A DNA stretch of 64,000 bases from Desulforapulum autotrophicum. GTDB lineage: Bacteria > Desulfobacterota > Desulfobacteria > Desulfobacterales > Desulfolunaceae. Position numbers and translations under genes: made by a program. Below, piece after piece: positions 21,092 to 61,863 of the stretch (positions are counted from its first letter, which is position 1; each line of letters starts with the position of its first letter). Below the pieces are notes generated by a model. It saw only the letters and a list, made by a program, of their open reading frames with translations. It did not search any database and was not told the DNA's origin. Where the stretch lies: positions 124,001 through 188,000 of the forward strand of contig DYJE01000006.1 in assembly GCA_020723285.1 (NCBI GenBank), given 5' to 3'.

Positions 21092-22897
21092 ATGGCCAGA
21101 AAATACGTCAGCATGAGAAATTTAAGGTTCCTGCTTCACGAGATGTTCAAAGTGGCGGAGCTTGGAAAATCCCCCTATTTCGCACGGCACAACCTCACCA
21201 CCTACAAACTGGTGCTGGACGAAGCCCTGAAACTCGGAGACAAGCTCCTTCACCCGATTTTTGAAGAAATGGACCGGAAACCTCCGGAACTGGTGAACGG
21301 AGAAGTGGTGGTCCATCCCCTGACCCGGAAAATCCTCAGCGAATTCGGAAAAAGCGGATGGATTTCAGCCTCGTTCTCCGAAGAACACGGCGGAGAGCAG
21401 CTGCCCTTCACCGTGGCCGCAGCCTGCAACTTCATTTTCGCGGCGGCCAATTATTCGGGCAGCGTTTACATGGGCCTCAGCGCAGGTGCGGTCCACCTGA
21501 TCCAGAACTTCGGAAGCGACGATCTCAAAAAAACCTACGTGGACAAGATGATCCAAGGCGAATGGCAGGGCACCATGGCCCTGACCGAGCCCCAGGCCGG
21601 AAGCTCTCTGTCGGACATCACCACCTGCGCCCGCCCTGACGGAAAGGGCGGGTACACCCTCACCGGCCAGAAAGTGTTCATCTCCGCCGGTGATCACAAC
21701 GGCGCGGATAACGTGGTGCATCTGGTGCTGGCCCGCATCGACGGTGCGCCGGCGGGTGTCAAGGGCATTTCCCTTTTTGTGGTTCCGAAAAAAAGGGTGG
21801 AGGGGAACGGCGACCTGGTTTTCAACGATGTGACGGTCACCCAGGTGTTCCATAAAATGGGCTATCGGGGTGCGCCCATCACCGAACTGAGCTTCGGGGA
21901 AAAAGGCGATTGCCGGGCCTATCTGGTGGGCGAAGCCAACCGTGGCCTTGTCTACATGTTCCAGATGATGAACGAAGCCCGGCTGGGTGTGGGCCTCGGG
22001 GCCACGGCCATCGCCTCCGCAGCCTATTACTCAGCCCTGGATTACACCCGGAACCGGCTCCAGGGTCGGCGGCTTCTGTCCAAGGACCCGCTTTCTGCCC
22101 AGATCCCCATCATCGAACACGCGGATGTGAAACGCATGCTGCTGTTCCAGCGGGCCGTGGTGGAAGGGTCGCTGGCGCTGATTCTCCAGTGCAGTTTTTA
22201 CGAAGACATGCAGCATGTGGCCGAAGGCGACGACAAAGAGCGCTTCCATCTGCTTCTCGACCTTCTGACGCCGGTGGCCAAATCCTATCCGGCGGAAATG
22301 GGAATCCTATCCACCAGCCAGAGCATCCAGTGTTTCGGCGGTTACGGCTATTGCGAGGATTTTCCGGTGGAACAGCATTTCAGGGATATGCGCATCCACA
22401 CCATCCACGAGGGCACCACGGGCATCCAGGGCATGGATCTCCTGGGCCGGAAGCTGGTGATGAACAACGGCAAGGCGTTTTTCCTGTTCCTTGCGGAAGT
22501 CCGGAAAACTGTGAACGAGGCCAAGTCCGTCAGCGGTCTTGAACGTCAGTCGGCGGCCCTTGAAGACGCTCTCAAAACCCTGGAACAGGTCAGCGGACAC
22601 CTCATCGCCCTGGCCCAGACCCAAGGACCGGAAACCATGCTGGCCGACGCCGTACTCTACCTGGAACTGTTCGGAACCGTCACCATGGCCTGGCAGTGGC
22701 TGACCCAGGCGCTCACGGCCTCCGCAGCCCTTGTGAAAGACCCGTCAAAATCCGACCAGGCCTTCTACCAGGGCAAGCTTTACACGTGCCGCTATTTCTT
22801 TGCCTACGAACTTCCGAAAATCAAAGGCCTGGCCCAGCGTCTCACCGACGAGGACCCGCTGACCCTTTCGATGCCCTCGGAATGTTTTGGGGATTGA
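21092..22897 (+). CDS. Acyl-CoA dehydrogenase, DmdC-like large family
   Basis: This 601-residue flavoprotein is longer than classical acyl-CoA dehydrogenases and matches the size of the DmdC (methylthiopropanoyl-CoA dehydrogenase) and related group. The FAD-contact block MALTEPQAGSSLSDITT and the TGQKVFISAGDH segment are clear, and IHEGTTGIQGMDLLG holds the probable catalytic Glu region. The C-terminal 120 residues form the extra helical domain of this family. AAGGAG precedes the ATG. Together with the divergent sigma-54 activator it looks like a regulated acyl-CoA or organosulfur oxidation gene; the actual substrate is not determined by sequence, and no ETF genes are nearby. Confidence 0.9.
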   Translation: MARKYVSMRNLRFLLHEMFKVAELGKSPYFARHNLTTYKLVLDEALKLGDKLLHPIFEEMDRKPPELVNGEVVVHPLTRKILSEFGKSGWISASFSEEHGGEQLPFTVAAACNFIFAAANYSGSVYMGLSAGAVHLIQNFGSDDLKKTYVDKMIQGEWQGTMALTEPQAGSSLSDITTCARPDGKGGYTLTGQKVFISAGDHNGADNVVHLVLARIDGAPAGVKGISLFVVPKKRVEGNGDLVFNDVTVTQVFHKMGYRGAPITELSFGEKGDCRAYLVGEANRGLVYMFQMMNEARLGVGLGATAIASAAYYSALDYTRNRLQGRRLLSKDPLSAQIPIIEHADVKRMLLFQRAVVEGSLALILQCSFYEDMQHVAEGDDKERFHLLLDLLTPVAKSYPAEMGILSTSQSIQCFGGYGYCEDFPVEQHFRDMRIHTIHEGTTGIQGMDLLGRKLVMNNGKAFFLFLAEVRKTVNEAKSVSGLERQSAALEDALKTLEQVSGHLIALAQTQGPETMLADAVLYLELFGTVTMAWQWLTQALTASAALVKDPSKSDQAFYQGKLYTCRYFFAYELPKIKGLAQRLTDEDPLTLSMPSECFGD

Positions 22898-26373: not shown

Positions 26374-28020
26374 TCAAAAAACCGTAACAAAACGCCTGCC
26401 GTAACTGTCATAAGCAATCACTTCAAGATACCGCCAATTGATGGATGATAGGCCGGAAGGGAATGTCAATACAGTGCTTGTCTCTCCTGGACCGAGATCA
26501 TCCGATTCGTTATACAACTCTGTGTTTACACCAATCCCCACTTCCACTCCGTGAATGCTCAGTCCCTCCGGCATCGTCCAGCGTACTGTAAGAGAACCTC
26601 CTGTAAAGGCATAAAAATTAGCAAATGTAGGTGATGTTATGGCGGGGAAACTCGCAGTTGACAGCTCAGATATATTACATGGTCTTTTTTTAATCGTTTT
26701 CTTGTACGTGGCTTTGAGTTCCATCCCCAGATACATTTGAATTGTATATTCTGCGCCATTCTGAATGGCATTGGCAGGGACATCGTCAATTTCAAGAAAA
26801 TACTGGACCCAATCACTGGATATGTCCTTGGTCAGAGTAATGTTTGTGTCAATACCAGGCCCCGTGACCACCATCTTATCGGCGTTGCCGTTTGCTTCGA
26901 AAGCGAACGTAATACCCGATGAAAATTGAACCGGTCTGTTGACATTGTAAACGGCCTCCGATCTCACTGCAAATTCTGCTATACGTTGATCGCCATTAAA
27001 CAGCCAGGTCCCGTTTCTCTTGACCAGATCCCAACCCGCCGGATTCTGGGGATCATTTGAGGAAACCCAACTGACGAATGCGTGATCATGGGCTTCATTC
27101 ATGGATATGATGGTCAGATCGCTGAATGAAGTGCCGACAAAATCACTGCACAAAATGTCGGGAAGAAACGATGCCAGATCTTCACCACTTTCGACAAATG
27201 TATCTGCCGCAAACAGGGCGAGAAGATCCGGATGTGTACTGCTGGGATAACTGGTTTTAAACAACGCATAAAATTTTTCAAACTGAGCTTTTATCTGCTG
27301 ATAATCTGTCAATTCTGCGGCATTGATCACAAGAGCGTCTGTATCTGTTTTTCGGGTTAAATCATCCTGTATCTCCTGATTGTTCATAATGTTTATGATG
27401 GTCGCCACCTGAGATACCGGATCAACAGTAACCTTGACAACATCCATAACCGCATCGATTCCAGTCCGGTCAGCACTGAACGCTGTCCGCAACAAATCGA
27501 TGGATCCGGATACACCGAGTGCACTTAAAACAGGCAACAACCTTGTCCGGAGGGTTTCAGCCTGTTCTGCCAACTGCTGGGCGGTAAGGCTGGAAAACAG
27601 ACCTTGATCATAATAGGATTTTGCAATCTGACCGGCGGCATTGGCCACGATCAGATCTGTAAAAGGGGTGATGTTGATCGTACCGTTCACGTCAGCCGAT
27701 GTCGCGGCTGAATAAAGATGACAGTCGATTCCTCCAATAGTTCCGTCAGCCCTAAACATGAAGGGTCCTGTCATACCTGACACATCCACGGAATATTTTC
27801 CGTCTGCGGCTATGGTGACGGTTTTTTCTTTTGCCGTTGGAGTTGAACTGTCCTTAACGGTGACAGTCCCGATGATCGGGGCTCCGGCAGCCGCAGTGCC
27901 GGATATGGTTGTGCTCGGCTGTGGGTTGTTTTTTCCCCCGCCACTGCTGCCACAACCAGCCAAAAGAACCATGAGAATCATGGCAACCATTAAATACATG
28001 TTTTTCCTGATCAGAATCAT
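26374..28020 (-). CDS. Large lipoprotein with carboxypeptidase-regulatory-like N-terminal module
   Basis: This 548-residue protein has a lipoprotein signal (MVAMILMVLLAGCGSSGGG). The module SGTAAAGAPIIGTVTVKDSS to AADGKYSVDVSG is the CarboxypepD-regulatory-like or Ig-like fold typical of surface lipoproteins, followed by the conserved NITPFTDLIVANAAGQIA helix region and a C-terminal beta-rich part. The start at 28020 has an AAGAGGTGG site; the frame extends to 28158 without support. The plan resembles the lipoprotein at 9740-12064, so the two may be distant paralogues. AT content is higher than in neighbours, particularly in the upstream 360 bases. Ligand unknown. Confidence 0.8.
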   Translation of the reverse strand: MILIRKNMYLMVAMILMVLLAGCGSSGGGKNNPQPSTTISGTAAAGAPIIGTVTVKDSSTPTAKEKTVTIAADGKYSVDVSGMTGPFMFRADGTIGGIDCHLYSAATSADVNGTINITPFTDLIVANAAGQIAKSYYDQGLFSSLTAQQLAEQAETLRTRLLPVLSALGVSGSIDLLRTAFSADRTGIDAVMDVVKVTVDPVSQVATIINIMNNQEIQDDLTRKTDTDALVINAAELTDYQQIKAQFEKFYALFKTSYPSSTHPDLLALFAADTFVESGEDLASFLPDILCSDFVGTSFSDLTIISMNEAHDHAFVSWVSSNDPQNPAGWDLVKRNGTWLFNGDQRIAEFAVRSEAVYNVNRPVQFSSGITFAFEANGNADKMVVTGPGIDTNITLTKDISSDWVQYFLEIDDVPANAIQNGAEYTIQMYLGMELKATYKKTIKKRPCNISELSTASFPAITSPTFANFYAFTGGSLTVRWTMPEGLSIHGVEVGIGVNTELYNESDDLGPGETSTVLTFPSGLSSINWRYLEVIAYDSYGRRFVTVF

Positions 28021-28331
28021 GTCCACCTCTTCGTTTCCAATTTTTAGATTGATAAATAAAATGATACTTAACCATTGCAGAGCCAGCCGGTATCTATTTG
28101 CATAAAATATGCCGCCCAAAAAAATACAACTCTGTTCTAATAAATAATATTTCATCATTATTTCAAGCCATTACAAACAAAAAAAGACAGAACAGCATGG
28201 CTTAACCATCAAAATATTTTACAATATGTGAAATTTAATTCACATATCACTTTATTTGCATAGATTGGGTATCAATTATTCTTAATTAATTGTCTGTGGG
28301 ATTATCAAGTGGGTGGTTTGCAATAAAGAAA

Positions 28332-28388: not shown

Positions 28389-28985
28389 TCAATCGCCCTG
28401 ATCCTGGGCGGATACGCTCCGACTGCTCCAGAAATCCTTGTTTTTCAGGATAATGGCATCGAGGTTGTCAGGCTCTTGGGGCGCGTCCTGATTTTCCCCA
28501 GGGAGTTCCATTTCATCGGACAGCGGGGCTTCTTCATCCAAAAAATCATCATCAGCCGTTTCTTCGTCCCCAAGTCCTTCTTCCCCTTCAAGGTCAGCTT
28601 CGCCTTCATCCACCAGATCAATAACGTCGTATTCCTGATCTTCCATGTCACCTACCACCAGATTCCCTTCCCGGTCGAACATCACGGTCATGCCCACCGT
28701 CACCTGGAGGTTCATCCGGTAAACGATGCGGTTGTCCACGATGGCCATGTCTCCGTCCACGAATTCCATGCCCGACGGGCTCAGATTCCGGGCGGCGATG
28801 GCGGCGAGAACCTCGGGGTCGATTTTTTTCATGATGGAAAGGATCATGTCCCTTTCACCGGTTTTGATACTTTGAGAATCAGCGATTTTCATGGCGTTTT
28901 CGTCCCCTCCAACGGGTTTCTGGATGATGCCTGTGCTTAAAAAAGAAAATGAAATCCGGGCGATGGCCCGTTGAAGCGCACTCAC
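28389..28985 (-). CDS. Acidic hypothetical protein
   Basis: The 198-residue reading has a middle domain (MILSIMKKIDPEVLAAIAARNLSPS and MTVMFDREGNLVVGDME) followed by a strongly acidic, Asp/Glu-rich tail of about 70 residues. No family was recognised. The longest frame begins at a GTG at 28985 with weak support; ATG 28892, which gives 167 residues (MKIADSQSIKTGERD), has GGAGG some 13 bases upstream, so the start is unsettled. The acidic tail could be a protein-protein or metal-binding region. It has a clear terminator, which supports a real gene. Confidence 0.7.
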   Translation of the reverse strand: MSALQRAIARISFSFLSTGIIQKPVGGDENAMKIADSQSIKTGERDMILSIMKKIDPEVLAAIAARNLSPSGMEFVDGDMAIVDNRIVYRMNLQVTVGMTVMFDREGNLVVGDMEDQEYDVIDLVDEGEADLEGEEGLGDEETADDDFLDEEAPLSDEMELPGENQDAPQEPDNLDAIILKNKDFWSSRSVSAQDQGD

Positions 28986-29430: not shown

Positions 29431-30369
29431 ATGCCGGACATTCCTGTTATCAGGATCGGTCACTTGAAAATCACGGATCATCTTGTCCTGGGGATCACGG
29501 CCGACAAGATCAGGAAAGGCGTGGAAACGCTCAATCACTGCATGCTGGAACCCATCCTCATGCACGGCTGGAACCAGGTGGCGGACGCCCTGTCCGACGG
29601 AGGTCTTGAAGGCGCTCTGGTTCTCGCGCCCACAGCCATGGATCTTTTCAAATCCAAGGTCCCGGTGAAACTCATTTTATTCACCCATCGCTCAGGCAGC
29701 ATCCTTGTGAAAAACACGTCGGCGGGTATCAAAAGCATGCGGGATTTCAAGGGGAAAATCGTGCTGATCCCCTATCAGCTGTCCGTGCATCACATGCTGT
29801 TCCACCGCCTGCTCGCGGAAGTGGGGCTCAAACCCGGAACCACCAAAGACCCCCATGCCGATGTATTTCTGGAGGTTATGGCCCCCACCATGATGCCCGA
29901 AGCCATCGAATACGACACCAAAGGAGAAATCGGCGGATTCATCGTGGCAGAGCCCATCGGCACACAGGCCGTGGCCGCCGGATTCGGAGAAGAGGTCTGT
30001 TTGTCGAAAGAACTCTGGCCCGGCCATCCCTGCTGCGTCCTGGTGATGAGGGACCACGTGATCCGTCAGTATCCCGAAGCGGTCCAGGAAATCACCAGCA
30101 GCCTGGTTCAATCCGGTTTTTACATGGACAAGAATCCCGGCGAAGCCGCAAAAATCGGAGCGTCTTTCCTGGGTCAGGGCGAACCCCTGATCCGCTCGGT
30201 GCTGAGCGAGCCTGCGGACCGGATCACCGCCAGCGAACTGTATCCGAGAATCAACGACCTCATCGTCATCCAGGATTACATGATCCACGACATGAACATC
30301 ATGACATCCGCCATCGACATGAACGCCTTTGTCGATGCACGATTCGCAGAAACCGCCGGGGCGAAATAA
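29431..30369 (+). CDS. Leaderless NMT1/NrtA-like ligand-binding protein
   Basis: This 312-residue protein has the periplasmic-binding-protein type II fold of the NMT1/NrtA/SsuA group: KITDHLVLGITADK at the start, ALVLAPTAMDLFKSKVPVKL, SMRDFKGKIVLIPYQLSVHH, EIGGFIVAEPIGTQAVAAG, and GHPCCVLVMRD. Members usually have a Sec or lipoprotein signal and serve ABC importers. Here the protein starts MPDIPVIRIGHLKITD with no hydrophobic leader, right after AAGGAGG, so it should stay in the cytoplasm. No ABC permease or ATPase is nearby. The next gene fuses the same domain to a receiver. Likely a ligand sensor in signalling; the ligand is unknown. Confidence 0.83.
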   Translation: MPDIPVIRIGHLKITDHLVLGITADKIRKGVETLNHCMLEPILMHGWNQVADALSDGGLEGALVLAPTAMDLFKSKVPVKLILFTHRSGSILVKNTSAGIKSMRDFKGKIVLIPYQLSVHHMLFHRLLAEVGLKPGTTKDPHADVFLEVMAPTMMPEAIEYDTKGEIGGFIVAEPIGTQAVAAGFGEEVCLSKELWPGHPCCVLVMRDHVIRQYPEAVQEITSSLVQSGFYMDKNPGEAAKIGASFLGQGEPLIRSVLSEPADRITASELYPRINDLIVIQDYMIHDMNIMTSAIDMNAFVDARFAETAGAK

Positions 30370-30445
30370 GACACCTGCCGGTACACATATAAACATATTA
30401 AAATGATTAGCACCTGTTTTCTAACACCAGACAAGGAGAGTCAAA

Positions 30446-31822
30446 ATGCCAGTTGACATGAATATGACCATTTTGGTCGTGGATGATTCCGGAACAATGC
30501 GATTGATGTTCAAACAGTACCTGAACAAAGCCGGTTTCGGCAATATCCTCCTGGCGGTGGATGGAAAAGACGCTGTAAAAAAAATTGAGCAGGGTCTTAA
30601 AATCGATCTGATCATCAGCGACTGGAATATGCCGAACATGGACGGCCTTGCCCTTCTGAGGTGGGTGAGGAACAGCCCGGTCTTCAAGGATCTCCCGTTT
30701 ATCATGGCGACAGCCCAGGGCGACAAGACCCAGCAGCATGTGGTGATCGAAAACGGTGGAAACAACCACATCGCCAAACCTTTTGATTCTGACGAAATCA
30801 AAGCCAAAATTTTCGCCGTGTTCGAAGGTGAGTCCGAAAAACCCACAGGGCAGCGGGTTCCCGAAGTGGTGGACGGCAAGGTCAAAATCAAGATGGCCCA
30901 CATCCAGATCACCGATCACCTGATTCTCGGCGTTCTCAAACAACAGATCGCCGCAGGCGTCGTGACCCCCAAAACCTTCACCCTTGAAACCGAGTGCATC
31001 GGCGGCTGGAATCCCATCCAGGAAAAGCTCGAAACCGCCCAGGTGGACGGCGCTTTTGTCCTGGCCCCCATCGCCATGGACCTCTTCGCCTACGACGTTC
31101 CCATCAAGCTGGTGCTTCTGGCCCACAAGAACGGCAGCGGCTTCATCCGCAACAAAAACTACGAGACCGAACCCTCGGACAGCCTGAAAGATTTTTATAA
31201 ATACAAGGTGGTGAACATTCCCCACAAAATGTCCATCCACAACATGCTGGCCCATAAATTTTTGAAAGGCCTGGGCCTGAAACCCGGTGTTCCCGGAAAA
31301 AAAGCCATCGACGTCAGGTTCGAAGTGGTTCCGCCCATCAAAATGCCCGGAATCATGAAGGAAAACGAGGATGTTGGAGGATTCATCGTGGCCGAGCCCA
31401 TCTGCACCAAAACCATCGCCATGGGCGTTGGGGACATGGAATTCATTTCTGCCACACTCTGGCAGGATCATCCCTGCTGTGTGGTGGCCATGAGGGACGA
31501 AATCGTGGAGGCCTACCCCGATGCGGTGTTTGAACTGACGGATCTTCTGGTCAAGGCGGGGCAGTTTGTGGAAAACAACAAGGAAAAAGCTGCTGAAATC
31601 GCCGTCAACTTCCTTGATCCGGAAAAAACCGTGGGCCTGACCACCGCCGTGCTGAACAAGGTGCTGACCCAGCCGGGCGGTATTACCATGAACAATCTTT
31701 ACCCCATCAAGGACGATCTGGATAAAATACAGCAGTACATGCATCATGAAATGGATATCGGTCGCCTGATCGATCTTGATCGTTTCGTGGATCTCCGATT
31801 CGCGAACAAAAGCTGCGGATAG
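30446..31822 (+). CDS. Response-regulator receiver fused to NMT1/NrtA-like ligand-binding domain
   Basis: Residues 1-125 form a complete receiver: acidic pair Asp13/Asp14 (VVDDS), phosphoacceptor Asp59 (ISDWNMP), Thr89 (MATA) and Lys111 (AKPF). Residues from about 145 to 458 form a binding-protein domain closely parallel to the previous gene: KIKMAHIQITDHLILGVL, AFVLAPIAMDLFAYDVPIKL, VGGFIVAEPICTKTIA and DHPCCVVAMRD. AAGGAG precedes the ATG. There is no DNA-binding or enzymatic output domain and no signal peptide, so this is a cytoplasmic protein in which phosphorylation and ligand binding could be coupled. The gap from the upstream paralogue is 76 bases. Confidence 0.88.
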   Translation: MPVDMNMTILVVDDSGTMRLMFKQYLNKAGFGNILLAVDGKDAVKKIEQGLKIDLIISDWNMPNMDGLALLRWVRNSPVFKDLPFIMATAQGDKTQQHVVIENGGNNHIAKPFDSDEIKAKIFAVFEGESEKPTGQRVPEVVDGKVKIKMAHIQITDHLILGVLKQQIAAGVVTPKTFTLETECIGGWNPIQEKLETAQVDGAFVLAPIAMDLFAYDVPIKLVLLAHKNGSGFIRNKNYETEPSDSLKDFYKYKVVNIPHKMSIHNMLAHKFLKGLGLKPGVPGKKAIDVRFEVVPPIKMPGIMKENEDVGGFIVAEPICTKTIAMGVGDMEFISATLWQDHPCCVVAMRDEIVEAYPDAVFELTDLLVKAGQFVENNKEKAAEIAVNFLDPEKTVGLTTAVLNKVLTQPGGITMNNLYPIKDDLDKIQQYMHHEMDIGRLIDLDRFVDLRFANKSCG

Positions 31823-34585: not shown

Positions 34586-37500
34586 CTAAAATCCCAGTTG
34601 TTTCTTAAGTTTCCTGTCCAGTGTTTTCAGAGTCACTCCCGCTTCATCGAAATGGTATTCCACCACCTGCCGCTCCAGAATCCGTCTCAGATCCTCGAAC
34701 TCGGAATTTACGATCCCAAAGGGAAACCCTTTTTTTATTTCGTTGAAACAGGCCTCGGACCGGACAGGGTCAGATTCTTTAAGACTTTCCCCCAGCTCCC
34801 TGAACAGGGCGAAAAGGGTCTCAGGGTCAACGGAGTCACCGGGGGCCACCACATGAACCCGTGTGTCTTTTCGGTCACCCATTTTTTCAAGGGCGTCTTT
34901 CACCCGGATAAAGGCGTCTTCGGCTGCCGGGATCAGAATTCTTATCCTCTCCTTGTTGCCTTTGATGCAGGCCTGCTCAAGGATTCCGGACACGGTTTTG
35001 AGTTCCACCGCAGAAATGTTCCCGGCCGCACCTTTCATGGAATGAGCCAGAAGCCTGGCATCCGTAAAGTTACCTTTATCAACAAATTCACCAAACTCAA
35101 CAAAAAAATGGTCGAACATCTGACAAAAATCAGCGACGATATCGAAATAACGGTTCCAGTTTCCGCCCAGACGCCGTAAACCTTCGGCGATATCAAGGCC
35201 CGGAAGCGTAAACGCGTCCTTCTGGTCCGGCTCGTTTTTTTCGCGATGGCCAATGGCCAGAACGCTCAGATCCTCATCAAGCCGGGACACATTGTTTCTG
35301 AGGGCTGAGAACAGTTCCTTCCGGTCGATGGGCTTTGGCACATAATCGTTCATTCCCGCCGCGATGCATCGTTCACGGTCGCCGTACATGGCATGGGCCG
35401 TCATGGCGATAATGGGTATGTCGGTGAGTTTCAGCTGGTCACGGATGTACCGTGACGCTTCGAGGCCGTCCATCTCAGGCATCTGGACATCCATCAGTAC
35501 GGCGTCGTAGGTTTTTCCCCTCAGGGCATCGATGGCTTCCAGGCCGTGACCGGCCTTGTCCACGCTGATCCCCGCCGAAACAAGAATCTCCGTGGCCACC
35601 ATCTGGTTGATGGGGTTGTCCTCCACCAGAAGGACCGTCATGTCGTTGAATTCATCCCAGGTCATGAGGCCCTGGGAATCGTCACTGCTCTTAAGGACCC
35701 TGAAACCGAAAATCTCCATGACGGTGTCGAACAATATGGACTGTTTCACCGGTTTCATGAGAAAGCTGTCCGCACCCGCGCTTCTCGCCCGCTGGACATC
35801 CCCGTCCCTGCCGTAACTCCCGGTGCAGATGATGGGCGGGGATGTGTAGCGGCTGTCGTTTTTGATCCTTGCAATGGCCTCGATGCCGTCCATGCCTTTG
35901 AGCTTCACGTCCATGATGATCAGGCCGTAGGGTTCCTGGGTCTGGGACAGGTAGTAAAGCTGGAGGGCTGTTTCAGCGGAACTGGCCATGTCCGTCCGGA
36001 ATCCGAAAGACTCCATGAACCGTTTGATGATGAGAAGGGTTGACGGGTTGTCATCCACGATCAGCACCCGTTTGTCTCTGAGGTTCGGTGGAACGGTCTG
36101 GGGGGTTTCCCTGTCCGCATCGGCTGTCCGTGTTTCAATGGTGAAATAGAACGCGCTTCCTTTGCCGATCTCGCTTTCGACCCAGATATCGCCGCCCATC
36201 ATCATGACGATTTTCTTGCAGATGGCAAGGCCCAGCCCCGTTCCGCCGTATTTGCGGGTGGTGGAACCGTCGGCCTGGGCAAAAGCGTCGAACAGACGCT
36301 CGGAAATGGATGAATCGATGCCGATGCCCGTGTCCCTGACACAGAACAGCAGGCTTACACGGTCTTCCACGCGGCTCCGGGTTTTCACGGAAATGCAGAT
36401 CTCGCCTTTTTTCGTGAACTTGAACGCATTGGAGCTGAGGTTGGCGAGGACCTGACGGAGCCGAAGGGGATCGGACACCAGTTTTCTGGGGGCCGAGGCA
36501 TCAATGTCCACCACCAGTTCGATGTCCTTGGTCATGCTGCGCTCAAGAAACATGTCCGACACTTCCTCGATCACGGAACGCAGGTTGAAAGGAACATTTT
36601 CAAAACCCAGTTTGCCCGCGTCGATTTTCGAAAAATCCAGGATATCGTTGATCAGTTCGAGAAGGGACCGGGACGACGAACGGACGATGTTCAAATACTC
36701 TTTCTGTTTGCGGGTCATCTCCGTGTTCATCACCAGATCGCACATGCCGATGATGGCGTTCATGGGGGTCCTAATTTCATGGCTCATGTTGGCCAGAAAT
36801 TCGCTTTTCGCCTTTCCCGAGGCATCTGCGGCTTCCATGGCCTTCTTGAGCTGGGCGTTCATTTCCTTGAGTTCCGCCGTGCGTTCCTCCACCCGTTTTT
36901 CCAGTTCGTCATGGGCTTTCTGAAGGGCGTGCTCGGCCTTCTTCCGCGGGGTGATATCGATGACCGACGCAATGGTCATACCGGTCTTGGCATCGGGATT
37001 CACTTCGGAATACACATGGATGATCTCCCCATCCTTCCGCACCAGCCGGAATTCGTATTCCCTGGGCGACGGCTGGCCGCTGGCCTGTCGGTCCAGATGG
37101 TCTTTCTTCAACACTTTCCGGTCTTCTTCCTCCACAAAATCCATCCAGCGGAACCTGCCTTCAATCTCGTAACGGCTGTAACCGGTCATCTTTTCCAGCA
37201 TGGGATTGGCTTCGGACACCACCATATGTTCATCGATCACCAGCAGTCCGGCACCGGTGTTTTCGAAAATATTCCTGTACTTGTCATTGCTGATCTCAAG
37301 GGCCAGGGTCCTTTTCCGGGTTTCCTCCCTGAATTCCTCAATCCTGAAAATAAACTTGTAGACATAGAAAAGAACTGAAAGGCAGAGAATGAAAAGCGTC
37401 AGTTCGGACGTGCTGAACCCCAGAACATAACTGCGAAGCCCCAGCACCAGGGGGGCCATGGCGATGATGCTCCAGGAAAGGAGATTGAAGGCCCTGATCC

Positions 37501-37879
37501 CGTACTGGATGCCGTTACCCACGGCGATGATCACCATGAACAGCATAAGGGGAGACGGCGAGGTGGGATCACAGATCCAGGCCACATAGGAAAAACCCAG
37601 GTCGGCGATGATACTGGAACGGACAAGGCCCCAGCTCATGCCCTGCTTCACCATGCGGTGGCGGAGAAGAAACTGGAGAACGGCGTAGGCCCCGATAAAA
37701 AGAAGCACCGGCTCAAAGCCCACCATCCGGAGCCTCGGCCCGATCAAAACATAGACTATGAACAGTCCTGCAAGCAGTGCCCGGACAAGATACTGCAATC
37801 CCGGCACATGGTTTTTTTTCCGTGTCATCTTTCCCGCCCCATCCACGGGATTATCCACCGTCAGGTTCCCACCACCCAT
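34586..37879 (-). CDS. Hybrid sensor histidine kinase with two receivers and Hpt domain
   Basis: This 1,097-residue membrane protein has several N-terminal transmembrane segments (about residues 30-180), a PAS domain (about 200-310), a coiled segment, then the HisKA domain with the phosphorylated His in MSHEIRTPMNA (about residue 367) and the ATPase domain (SNAFKFTKKGEI, DTGIGID, GGTGLGLAICK). Two receivers follow (IIMDVKLKGMDG and LMDVQMPEMDG), then a C-terminal Hpt with LLAHSMKGAAGN. That makes a full His-Asp-His relay. The ATG at 37879 has only a loose GGGG site; the frame opens earlier at 37939. It heads an operon with the REC/HD-GYP regulator, sbcB and a small protein. Confidence 0.93.
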   Translation of the reverse strand: MGGGNLTVDNPVDGAGKMTRKKNHVPGLQYLVRALLAGLFIVYVLIGPRLRMVGFEPVLLFIGAYAVLQFLLRHRMVKQGMSWGLVRSSIIADLGFSYVAWICDPTSPSPLMLFMVIIAVGNGIQYGIRAFNLLSWSIIAMAPLVLGLRSYVLGFSTSELTLFILCLSVLFYVYKFIFRIEEFREETRKRTLALEISNDKYRNIFENTGAGLLVIDEHMVVSEANPMLEKMTGYSRYEIEGRFRWMDFVEEEDRKVLKKDHLDRQASGQPSPREYEFRLVRKDGEIIHVYSEVNPDAKTGMTIASVIDITPRKKAEHALQKAHDELEKRVEERTAELKEMNAQLKKAMEAADASGKAKSEFLANMSHEIRTPMNAIIGMCDLVMNTEMTRKQKEYLNIVRSSSRSLLELINDILDFSKIDAGKLGFENVPFNLRSVIEEVSDMFLERSMTKDIELVVDIDASAPRKLVSDPLRLRQVLANLSSNAFKFTKKGEICISVKTRSRVEDRVSLLFCVRDTGIGIDSSISERLFDAFAQADGSTTRKYGGTGLGLAICKKIVMMMGGDIWVESEIGKGSAFYFTIETRTADADRETPQTVPPNLRDKRVLIVDDNPSTLLIIKRFMESFGFRTDMASSAETALQLYYLSQTQEPYGLIIMDVKLKGMDGIEAIARIKNDSRYTSPPIICTGSYGRDGDVQRARSAGADSFLMKPVKQSILFDTVMEIFGFRVLKSSDDSQGLMTWDEFNDMTVLLVEDNPINQMVATEILVSAGISVDKAGHGLEAIDALRGKTYDAVLMDVQMPEMDGLEASRYIRDQLKLTDIPIIAMTAHAMYGDRERCIAAGMNDYVPKPIDRKELFSALRNNVSRLDEDLSVLAIGHREKNEPDQKDAFTLPGLDIAEGLRRLGGNWNRYFDIVADFCQMFDHFFVEFGEFVDKGNFTDARLLAHSMKGAAGNISAVELKTVSGILEQACIKGNKERIRILIPAAEDAFIRVKDALEKMGDRKDTRVHVVAPGDSVDPETLFALFRELGESLKESDPVRSEACFNEIKKGFPFGIVNSEFEDLRRILERQVVEYHFDEAGVTLKTLDRKLKKQLGF

Positions 37880-38156
37880 AGTTAAACCCCAGAAAGACAG
37901 ATGAATGATATGAGAGACAGCGTACAGACTCCCCCACAACCGTTCCTCCCCACCGAAGGCAAAACAATCCCGGCAACTGATGGATTGCCCGATCTATCGC
38001 GGATCATCAATTATACAACCGGAATGCTAAACATGTATTTCAGGTGTAAACCGAAGTCAATAGAAGAATTTCAATTGGTTATAATATGTGTAAAAAAACC
38101 GGACGATTGCCCTGTCGCAAGCGAAGCCCCCCGGCTCAGACCGCCCGAAGTGCGTG

Positions 38157-59566: not shown

Positions 59567-59859
59567 ATCGCCTCCTTGTGATTTTTTGTCGGTGACCATC
59601 CCATGAATTCACGTTTCACAGGGTCTTATCCGTCCATTGACCATGATGATGGGTAATGATGATTCCAACGTCAGTAAATATCGGTTTTTCAACAGTCCTG
59701 ACACTATAACGGTTGAAAGACCCAAAATCAAGGGCAGTGATACCAGCCCAAAAACCAGCACATATTTTTTTCAGCTCAAGGCAAAAGCCACGAAAGCCGA
59801 TTATTTTATTTGCACACACGATGTCCTATCAATCCAAGCCCAAATACCAGGAGAAAGTC

Positions 59860-61863
59860 ATGGAAACGAAAAAAAACTCCATCGCTGTCAAACTCATCGT
59901 CGGGGGTTTGATGTGCGTTCTCATCCCCCTTGTCACCGTCAGCGTCATCTCACAGCAGTCTTCGCGCTCGGCCCTGATCTCCATGGCCATGGAACGAACC
60001 ATGGATGTGTCGAACAACCTCGCGAAACTGACCCATGCCACACTCACGGCGGAACTGAACCTTGCCAGATCCCTGGCTGCCGGAGAGCGCCAGATCAGGG
60101 TTTCCACGAGCATCAAAGAAAAGGGGATAGATAATGCCCCTGAAGAAATACCCGCGCTGTTCGAAAACCTGAAAACAAAATTCAAGCGGATGGACAAGAT
60201 TTACCAGGGGCTCTTTGTGACCGATGACAAAGGTTTCATCTACACGGGAGTGGATGAGAACGATAACGAAATCAAAGGAACGTCCGTCGCGGACAAGGAA
60301 TACTTCAAACGGCTGACAGAATCCAAAGAGCCGGTCGTAAGTGAAATCGTCCGGGCGGACAAAGGGGATGGGTTCATTTTCACGGTGTGCGCACCGGTCA
60401 AATCCGCATCCGGAGAATTCATCGGTTCCGTGGTCACCGTGGTCAAGGCCGGTTACCTCATCGACATTGTCGCAGGACAGAAAATTGGGGCTACCGGCTA
60501 CGGATACATGGTGGACCGGAACGCGGTCATCAATATCCATCCGGTCAGGGAAAACATCCTGACCCTTGACCTGAAAGTCCTCAAAGGCACAGAAACACTC
60601 GGAAACCGTCTGACCCGTGGAGCTGCGGGGTATGAAACCTACCATTACAAAGGGGATAAAAAGGTGTCCGGTTTTTCCCCGGTGGGCATCAACGGCTGGA
60701 TGGTGGTCACGGCCCAGTTCATGGACGAGGTCACAGCCTCGGCCAACGCCATGCGCAACCTGACGATCATCGTCGCCCTCATCTCCGTCCTCGTCACCGT
60801 AGGGGTCATCGGATTTTCCGTAAAAATCATCGTCAGCCCCATCAATTCAGCCGTCACCAGCCTCAAGGATATCGCTCAGGGCAAAGGGGATCTCACCTTG
60901 AGGCTCACATCCCGGAGCAACGATGAAATCGGCGAACTGGCCCGCTGGTTCAATCTGTTCATGGACAAGCTCCAGGACATGGTCGGGCAGATTTCGAAAA
61001 GTGTCGGCATGCTGACAGACTCCTCGTCGGAGCTTTTTGCTGTTTCCGAAACCATGAGCAGCACAACCCGGAAAACATCGGATCGGTCCGGGAATGTGGC
61101 CGAAGCCGCCAGCCACCTGAACGACAACATGATTTCCGCCGCATCGGCCATGGAGCAGTCCTGTCATAATACGGATATGGTGGCCAGGGCGGCTGAAGAG
61201 ATGTCATCGACCATCACCGAGATTGCGCGGAATTCCGAAAAAGCCCGATCCATCTCCCATCAGGCGGCCGAGCAGGCCTCCACCAGCACAAGCCAGATGG
61301 CCCAGCTGGGCGAAGCGGCCCAGGCCATCGGACGTGTTGTAGAAACCATCAACGAAATTTCCGAACAGGTCAACCTTCTTGCCCTGAACGCCACCATCGA
61401 AGCGGCAAGAGCCGGTGAAGCGGGCAAGGGCTTTGCCGTGGTCGCCAACGAAATCAAGGAACTGGCCCGACAGACCGCCGATGCCACACGGGACATCGAA
61501 ACGAAAATCGATGACATACAGAACGTCACCGAACAGACCATCCACCGGATTGACATCATCAACGGGGTCATCGGGGAAGTCAACCATGTGGTTATCGGCA
61601 TTGCCTCCGCTGTGGAAGAGCAGTCAGCATCCACCTCTGAAATCGCCCTGAACGTGGCACAGGCTGCATCAGGCATTCAGGATATCCATAAAAACCTCTC
61701 CCACAGCACAGCTCTCGCCACCGATATTTCAAAGGATATCAGCGACGTCAATACCGACACCCTGGATATCGCAAAGGCCAGCGCCCGGATCAGCCAGTCA
61801 TGTAAAAATCTGTTCGATCTGGCCGACGGCCTGAAAAACATGGTCGGACAGTTCAGGATATAG
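59860..61863 (+). CDS. Methyl-accepting chemotaxis protein (dCache, HAMP, MCP signal)
   Basis: The 667-residue receptor has an N-terminal helix (LIVGGLMCVLIPLVTVSVIS), a double-Cache periplasmic sensor of about 250 residues (IYQGLFVTDDKGFIYTGVDE, YGYMVDRNAVINIHP), a second membrane helix (IIVALISVLVTVGVIGFSV), a HAMP domain (SPINSAVTSLKDIAQGKGDL) and the MCP core with EQVNLLALNATIEAARAGEA and KGFAVVANEIKELA. CAGGAG precedes ATG 59860. No che genes are close, and no C-terminal CheR-tethering pentapeptide is present. The ligand is not known; dCache sensors often bind amino acids or organic acids. Confidence 0.94.
   Translation: METKKNSIAVKLIVGGLMCVLIPLVTVSVISQQSSRSALISMAMERTMDVSNNLAKLTHATLTAELNLARSLAAGERQIRVSTSIKEKGIDNAPEEIPALFENLKTKFKRMDKIYQGLFVTDDKGFIYTGVDENDNEIKGTSVADKEYFKRLTESKEPVVSEIVRADKGDGFIFTVCAPVKSASGEFIGSVVTVVKAGYLIDIVAGQKIGATGYGYMVDRNAVINIHPVRENILTLDLKVLKGTETLGNRLTRGAAGYETYHYKGDKKVSGFSPVGINGWMVVTAQFMDEVTASANAMRNLTIIVALISVLVTVGVIGFSVKIIVSPINSAVTSLKDIAQGKGDLTLRLTSRSNDEIGELARWFNLFMDKLQDMVGQISKSVGMLTDSSSELFAVSETMSSTTRKTSDRSGNVAEAASHLNDNMISAASAMEQSCHNTDMVARAAEEMSSTITEIARNSEKARSISHQAAEQASTSTSQMAQLGEAAQAIGRVVETINEISEQVNLLALNATIEAARAGEAGKGFAVVANEIKELARQTADATRDIETKIDDIQNVTEQTIHRIDIINGVIGEVNHVVIGIASAVEEQSASTSEIALNVAQAASGIQDIHKNLSHSTALATDISKDISDVNTDTLDIAKASARISQSCKNLFDLADGLKNMVGQFRI

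Follow-up and report, generated by a model that had tools for sequence, protein, structure and literature searches.

Chemotaxis sensing is thought to take place mostly at the receptors, and NrtC and CmpC carry C-terminal NrtA-like domains that are presumed to throttle their ATP-binding cassette (ABC) transporter. Several other described systems come close to the locus considered here. CheV is presented as a single protein with a CheW-like domain and a receiver (PMC12691637), CheWS of Treponema as CheW joined to a CheR-like intracellular sensor of S-adenosylmethionine (SAM) (PMC10653840), and NasS as a cytosolic NrtA homologue that frees NasT, a receiver (REC) joined to an ANTAR domain, in response to nitrate or nitrite (PMC3795266). 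Here we describe two tandem genes at positions 29431-31822 of a 64,000-nucleotide stretch of Desulforapulum autotrophicum DNA (contig DYJE01000006.1; the whole stretch is called the window below), which encode a free NMT1_2 binding protein and a fusion of a receiver with the same domain. With a probability that we put at about 0.6, the pair senses a ligand inside the cell, in a manner coupled to import, and reports to CheA-type (chemosensory) signalling.

The gene pair

The features of the pair are the following.

29431..30369, + strand: free cytosolic NMT1_2 (NrtA/3UN6-like) binding protein of 312 residues, without a leader (open reading frame (ORF), Pfam).
30025..30036, + strand: HPCC motif in the pocket of the free protein, residues 199-202 (sequence, pocket alignment).
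30446..31822, + strand: receiver-NMT1_2 fusion of 458 residues, without the C-terminal CheW of many relatives (ORF, Pfam).
30470..30811, + strand: CheY-like receiver domain of the fusion, residues 9-122 (Pfam, PDB sequence, fold).
30620..30622, + strand: codon of the predicted phospho-acceptor Asp59 of the fusion (receiver alignment).
30878..31819, + strand: cytosolic NMT1_2 domain of the fusion, residues 145-458 (Pfam, structure model).
31469..31480, + strand: HPCC pocket motif of the fusion, residues 342-345, the second Cys of which aligns with Lys269 of NrtA (alignment).

The two genes lie on one strand with a spacing of 76 bases, the free gene first. In Pfam the free protein matches NMT1_2 with E 1.1e-25, and the fusion matches Response_reg over residues 9-122 (E 1.1e-24) and NMT1_2 over residues 145-386 (E 6.2e-28). 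Residues D14, D59, T89 and K111 of the receiver are invariant across 51 aligned rows, and position 13 is Asp in the window fusion and Asp or Glu in the 20 rows inspected. The ATG of the free protein is the first possible start downstream of the preceding stop and lies a few residues ahead of the conserved VIRIGHL stretch; no strongly hydrophobic N-terminus was seen there in a crude hydropathy check, which is not a signal-peptide predictor. The N-terminus of the fusion is the receiver itself, so that there is no leader. Thus the tandem genes with a common domain, the lack of signal peptides and the intact phosphorylation residues, all noticed in a preliminary description made from the letters and their translations, are borne out.

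The nearest PDB sequences to the receiver are those of CheY. An AlphaFold2 model of the fusion, built on the 51-row alignment (predicted local distance difference test (pLDDT) 90.3, predicted template-modelling score (pTM) 0.87), places its receiver at a fold Z of about 24 from CheY and its NMT1_2 domain close to 3UN6 (Z 36.6), NrtA (35.1), CmpA (34.3), the cytosolic domain of CmpC (33.8) and the NrtC chain (32.2). No Pfam match to CheW (PF01584), CheR, ANTAR, a DNA-binding domain or an ABC ATPase was obtained in the window fusion, and neither protein of the pair has a DNA-binding or ANTAR domain in Pfam.

Distribution and output domains

The search of relatives for both domains in one chain and for their neighbours, which the preliminary description had proposed, revealed a family that is often fused to CheW. 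A scan of named genomes with two peptide patterns, from which the best 80 matches were kept, yielded 67 usable fusion loci; fractions given below hold for that sample only. Locus L159, from the sister genus (genome G401), brings the tabulated loci to 68, and loci L147-L158 were excluded as receiver-only or cut. Neighbours were labelled by phmmer with single seeds, and since some flanks are short, absences of neighbours there are weak. The loci are mostly titled Desulfobacterales, Desulfobacteraceae, Deltaproteobacteria or genera thereof, and some Melioribacter, KSB1, Bacteroidetes or Spirochaetes; these latter are mostly records of metagenome-assembled genomes, where binning errors may account for single placements. 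With 4 candidates scored per genome, at least 20 of 395 genomes of the phylum, the window's own included, encode a full-length homologue, the 270 genomes with any match reflecting mostly other receivers. Within the order, with 11 candidates scored per genome, a match reaching E 1e-30 was obtained in 36 of 146 genomes and a receiver-spanning one in at least 34, with up to 7 copies per genome. A plasmid search with the fusion gave no match at E 1e-30.

A C-terminal CheW domain is present in 32 of the 67 scan loci (31 by phmmer with one CheW seed, L136 by Pfam only), and Pfam confirmed the order REC-NMT1_2-CheW in L045, L036 and L117 and a tandem REC-NMT1-REC-NMT1-CheW form in L136 (5486-9100). 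Three further fusions carry a C-terminal SpoIIE domain (L140:3416-5665), a C-terminal HATPase-STAS module (L138:2433-4649) or a histidine kinase ahead of REC-NMT1 in the same chain (L129:521-3700), which from their domain content would be outputs beyond chemotaxis. No output domain is found in 31 of the 67, as in the window copy, and one fusion is cut by a contig end. The earlier statement that there is no DNA-binding output stands, whereas the absence of any output is true of the window copy and those 31 loci and fails for the 32 with CheW and the three others.

In a tree of 119 NMT1 domains (116 distinct), the 77 REC-fused ones form one clade (support 100), and the window copy falls within a clade of 27 short forms (support 100) among CheW-bearing rows; the tree was made by a quick method, and its deeper branching and root are uncertain. 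On this tree 4 changes are required to explain CheW and 5 to explain the short form, of which well-supported branches force 1 each; CheW may have been lost or gained. The closest relative by identity, G401, has both genes adjacent at about 80% identity. All 8 genomes searched of the window's family (3 genera, own included) have the fusion, always in the short form; on the strength of this and the shared 27-row clade we reject truncation or an assembly artefact as the cause of the missing CheW. Of the short forms measured, the seven longest continue for 2 to 46 residues past the match, too little for a CheW domain.

A proposed link to chemosensory signalling

The fused CheW domain is the strong argument for a chemosensory link, and gene neighbourhoods supply individual examples. 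A CheW-bearing copy lies inside a complete che operon with methyl-accepting chemotaxis proteins (MCPs), CheR, CheB, CheA, Hpt, a CheY-like REC and CheD (L045), and a CheW-less copy of Desulfobacter latus is flanked on both sides by CheA-like genes by phmmer (L101). In L142 a gap of 3 bases separates another copy from the CheR gene that ends a CheD-REC-CheB-CheA-CheR operon; being cut by the contig end, this copy cannot stand for the CheW-less form. The HATPase-STAS and SpoIIE fusions (L138 and L140) adjoin CheA and CheW, the former directly by CheA, CheX adjoins the fusion in L036/L106 and L043, and an MCP directly adjoins it in L126 and L132; the MCP of L135 and the CheX of L136 were seen as neighbours below the thresholds of the locus table. 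Overall, a che gene is found in the fetched flank of 18 of 68 tabulated loci versus 1 of 13 control loci, which hold the free paralogue or a gene of the type of W24 (the divergent neighbour of the pair) and no fusion. Because controls are so few, this count is weak and we do not regard it as convincing enrichment.

The host possesses a flagellar and chemosensory background: its 5.4-Mb genome encodes FliG and gave 35 matches to the MCP signal domain, 34 of them above cut-off, and 12 to the CheW domain, although in both sets some matches are fragments of a single gene.

In the mechanism that we propose, a CheY-like receiver is joined to a periplasmic-binding-protein fold kept in the cytosol, with a free copy next door that has the same pocket, and the ligand would probably be that brought in by an NrtABCD/SsuABC-like ABC importer encoded between both genes in sister lineages. 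Binding of the ligand by the NMT1 domain and a phosphate on Asp59, for which a CheA or an Hpt protein is the most likely donor, would act jointly on a partner whose identity we infer, as we do the direction of the effect. Where CheW belongs to the same chain, as it does in about half of the family sampled, that domain would be the partner site and would place the protein in the receptor array. In the window form the signal would pass in trans, the best candidates being W24 or a CheA system.

Several observations weigh against this proposal. The window copy is without CheW, no che gene was found adjoining the pair, and the sole MCP found in the window is distant:

59713..61863, + strand: methyl-accepting chemotaxis protein, 28 kb from the pair (window search).

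In the family, a che gene is in the flank of only the 18 loci mentioned, with controls too few for enrichment, and the array link may not be applicable to the 31 of 67 forms without an output domain. No experiment on any family member was found in the literature.

The importer operon of sister lineages

The preliminary description had noted that no transporter is near the pair and had reasoned that ABC genes always adjoining it in relatives would speak against the description. In the window its observation stands: a scan of 10 neighbours from 21.1 to 41.9 kb, which took in neither the hybrid kinase at 34586-37939 nor the remaining window, gave no ABC gene. In the family it does not, since an ABC importer directly precedes the fusion in 17 of 68 tabulated loci, although not always. 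The order of genes in these operons is free NMT1, ABC ATPase, binding protein, permease, REC-NMT1 and W24, and the fusion is CheW-less in every one. The free NMT1 gene is on the contig in 15 of the 17, and was not seen in L086 and L099, where the contigs start just upstream. An Hpt gene follows downstream in 7 of the 17 and a divergent CheD gene lies upstream in 9; these labels were checked by profile, as were the importer genes of L089 by Pfam and NCBIfam. A twin-arginine pattern is present in 9 of 15 operon binding proteins, and 4 more have RRSF by eye.

The window, L159 and two records of Desulfoluna, a genus of the family of the window's genome, share a layout without the importer, in which W24 is divergent from free NMT1 and REC-NMT1; the free copy of Desulfoluna spongiiphila is degenerate (NMT1_2 20.5 bits versus a cut-off of 24.7). 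In L080 free NMT1, REC-NMT1 and W24 stand in line. Judged by gene order, the window pair looks like the importer operon minus its importer.

These operons also suggest another role, in which REC-NMT1 of the importer-bearing clade would be a separate regulatory subunit in the cytosol, sensing the ligand once imported and holding back the ABC transporter accordingly, the window copy being a remnant after importer loss. The position of the fusion directly behind the permease, its fold match to the CmpC and NrtC chains (PDB titles name the CmpC cytosolic domain a regulatory domain) and the lack of any NMT1-type domain in the one importer ATPase scanned (L089, 260 residues) would fit such a subunit. 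We nevertheless consider it unlikely: no importer is seen in 51 of 68 tabulated loci (some with short flanks), 32 of which have CheW, the window genome keeps both genes with no NMT1_2 importer binding protein found in a whole-genome NMT1_2 search, and the role needs no receiver.

Two side observations concern importers. In L035:1-3465 (genome G195) a related ABC importer, whose binding protein has the motif ITDHL...HICC, lies about 5 kb from a REC-NMT1-CheW gene and adjoins what by eye is an apparent NuoL/Mrp-type antiporter subunit. An acyl-CoA dehydrogenase like that at 21092-22897 of the window is encoded near the importer operon in L084, L085, L091, L096, L098 and L119, which may be chance synteny or relevant to the ligand.

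The ligand pocket

HPCC is present in both window proteins. In the alignment with NrtA, numbered by the single offset that fits both K269 and H196, Lys269 corresponds to the second Cys of HPCC, Gln155 to Ser, His196 to a conserved His (H120 of the free protein, H265 of the fusion) and Trp102 to a conserved Trp. We take W102 and Q155 to be nitrate-coordinating residues of NrtA. The roles of K269 and H196 in nitrate coordination are given in PMC8786288. Since a Cys occupies the Lys269 position in 77 of 77 fused domains, nitrate is unlikely, and we reject it as a simple reading of the ligand. Bicarbonate, formate and zinc are possible candidates.

The pocket set Trp, His, Gly-Ser, Ser-x-His, Trp and HPCC, eleven positions in all (W, H, G, S, S, H, W, H, P, C and C), does not vary among the 77 fused domains of the alignment, 75 of them distinct, whose records bear the titles of several phyla. 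The same residues are found in the operon binding proteins (15 of 15 in the alignment, with 17 loci in all) and in 10 of 10 window-type or unlinked free paralogues (9 distinct); the alignment left out L136 and the operon binding proteins of L091 and L094. Two binding proteins of the genus Desulfurivibrio deviate at pocket positions only by HICC. The 15 free copies within importer operons are decayed, with Gln for His in 11 and each of the two Cys kept in 7. Such identity of pockets points to one ligand class on both membrane sides, and the ligand is likely common to the importer and the cytosolic sensor; common ancestry of the 3UN6-like subfamily could be an alternative source of the identical residues. 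The suggestion that the two window proteins recognise a similar ligand, made earlier from their DHPCC/GHPCC segments, holds as to the residues, and a shared ligand is likely.

The pocket bears on a further alternative, modelled on NasS-NasT, in which the NMT1 domain would keep the receiver inactive until the ligand is bound, and the receiver or W24 would then act on gene expression, not chemotaxis. Apart from that precedent, it would draw on the unlinked free paralogue of relatives, which is convergent with a regulator-like gene (MerR_1 in L160; by eye in L162). We find it slightly less credible still than control of transport, as the pair has no ANTAR or DNA-binding domain, the nitrate residues are only partly kept, sensor and receiver are in one chain, and many relatives carry CheW. 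Least probable of all is that an ancestral binding protein ceased to recognise its ligand and persists here as an NMT1 domain with no role beyond that of a scaffold or dimerisation module, for although the decayed copies of the importer operons indicate that the fold can lose binding, the eleven pocket positions of the fused domains are invariant.

The divergent neighbour and other surroundings

Upstream of the pair lies the gene that we call W24.

28389..28985, - strand: W24, divergent acidic protein, with a conserved start at 28892 (ORF, homologue comparison).

The N-terminal domain of W24 is conserved; an acidic linker joins it to a C-terminal helix in which a Phe-Trp is invariant. A homologue adjoins the fusion in 21 of 68 tabulated loci. 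Its structure model is poor (mean pLDDT 67), and it has no match in the PDB at E 0.001. That W24 is the output partner of the window fusion is a guess from its position and layout. A partner unique to the REC-NMT1 system it is not, as the N-terminal domain occurs in 55 of 146 genomes of the order versus at least 34 for the receiver-spanning fusion match. In 5 of 6 loci inspected away from the pair a ParA-like ATPase gene adjoins the W24-type gene (by sequence; 1 of the 5 confirmed by Pfam). A set of ParA-like ATPase, W24-type protein and a third protein of about 400-494 residues recurs in the order (L179, L181, L182 and L184), with partial sets in L180 (no third gene) and L185 (no ParA-like gene); in L179, Pfam gave no match for the third protein.

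Three NMT1_2 proteins exceed the cut-off in the window's own genome, namely the pair and a third free paralogue on contig C31, all leaderless by eye, and a fourth match on contig C92 is below it. The third paralogue is unlinked to the pair and convergent with a protein of 412-454 residues (L160:8964-11153, L162:9186-11617 and, on the genome's own contig C31, L003:99-2424). This partner is MerR_1 by Pfam in L160 and similar by eye in L162, and in L003 has acidic repeats and no Pfam match; together the two are possibly a separate sensor-regulator pair. A 594-residue ORF at 26377-28158 (- strand), whose start codon is unsure, has by eye an apparent internal lipoprotein leader and no Pfam match.

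Comparison with known systems

A wider proposal, to which we give somewhat less than an even chance, is that the locus belongs to a family of import-coupled inner chemosensors, in which the nutrient-catching fold of an importer was recruited to the cytoplasm and wired via a CheY-like receiver to arrays and to other outputs (CheW, PP2C-type SpoIIE, HATPase-STAS, histidine kinase). The importer would read the same ligand outside and the sensor inside, with phosphorylation and ligand gating one output, and the window would hold a stripped two-protein form that, without importer or CheW, signals in trans, possibly via W24. If this is true, a widespread adaptor-like family carries its own binding-protein domain, through which cells could report an internal nutrient level directly to the array or to other outputs; with CheWS, this would be another way to sense below the level of the receptors. 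Given the same pocket in the importer binding protein and the cytosolic sensor, finding the ligand of one could reveal that of the other, and comparison of outside with inside by the cell would become directly testable in culturable sulfate reducers.

No apparent report on a REC-NMT1 or NMT1-CheW protein came up in the literature, as judged from titles and abstract openings in a partial listing of the matches. Fig. S10 of PMC10653840 counts 30 undescribed CheW architectures, among which REC-NMT1-CheW may be. The principle of the layout, of which the preliminary description knew no described system, is precedented by NasS-NasT (PMC3795266).

Among solved structures, 3UN6, a zinc-bound ABC-type ligand-binding component of Staphylococcus aureus, is closest in both sequence and fold (E 4.6e-33 with the A2 profile), and Trp, His and CC are common to it and the REC-NMT1 alignment; it is titled an ABC importer ligand-binding component and has no receiver. 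Compared with importer binding proteins generally, the window proteins lack the export signal, and the ATPase and permease alongside are absent among the 10 scanned neighbours and present in 17 of 68 loci. The cytosolic regulatory domain of NrtC and CmpC (8WM7, 9UAI and 9UAK) is likewise a cytosolic NrtA-type domain of close fold, but it is fused to an ABC ATPase, which the window protein is not, and has no receiver.

The nearest kinds are CheV, CheWS and NasS-NasT, and the pair fails a defining test of each. Like CheV, the fusions of 32 of the 67 loci combine a receiver with CheW in one chain, but in the order REC-NMT1-CheW with a ligand-binding domain in between; the window fusion has the receiver with intact phosphorylation residues and no CheW in its chain. 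CheWS likewise equips a CheW-type array protein to sense a small molecule inside the cell, but it comes from spirochaetes, has a SAM-binding CheR-like fold and has no receiver described, whereas the window fusion has no CheW or CheR match. NasS-NasT also pairs a leaderless cytosolic NrtA-like sensor with a receiver protein, but in two chains, with an ANTAR output and conserved nitrate residues; the window fusion is one chain without ANTAR, in which His196 and Trp102 are kept and Lys269 and Gln155 are replaced by Cys and Ser. The window fusion is instead a leaderless NMT1_2 domain with the W/GS/SxH/HPCC pocket behind a CheY-like receiver, inside the REC-NMT1 clade. Set against these systems, and as far as sequence comparison allows, the family appears to be a sensor-bearing, receiver-linked one, whose commonest output is CheW and which includes CheW-less members such as that of the window.

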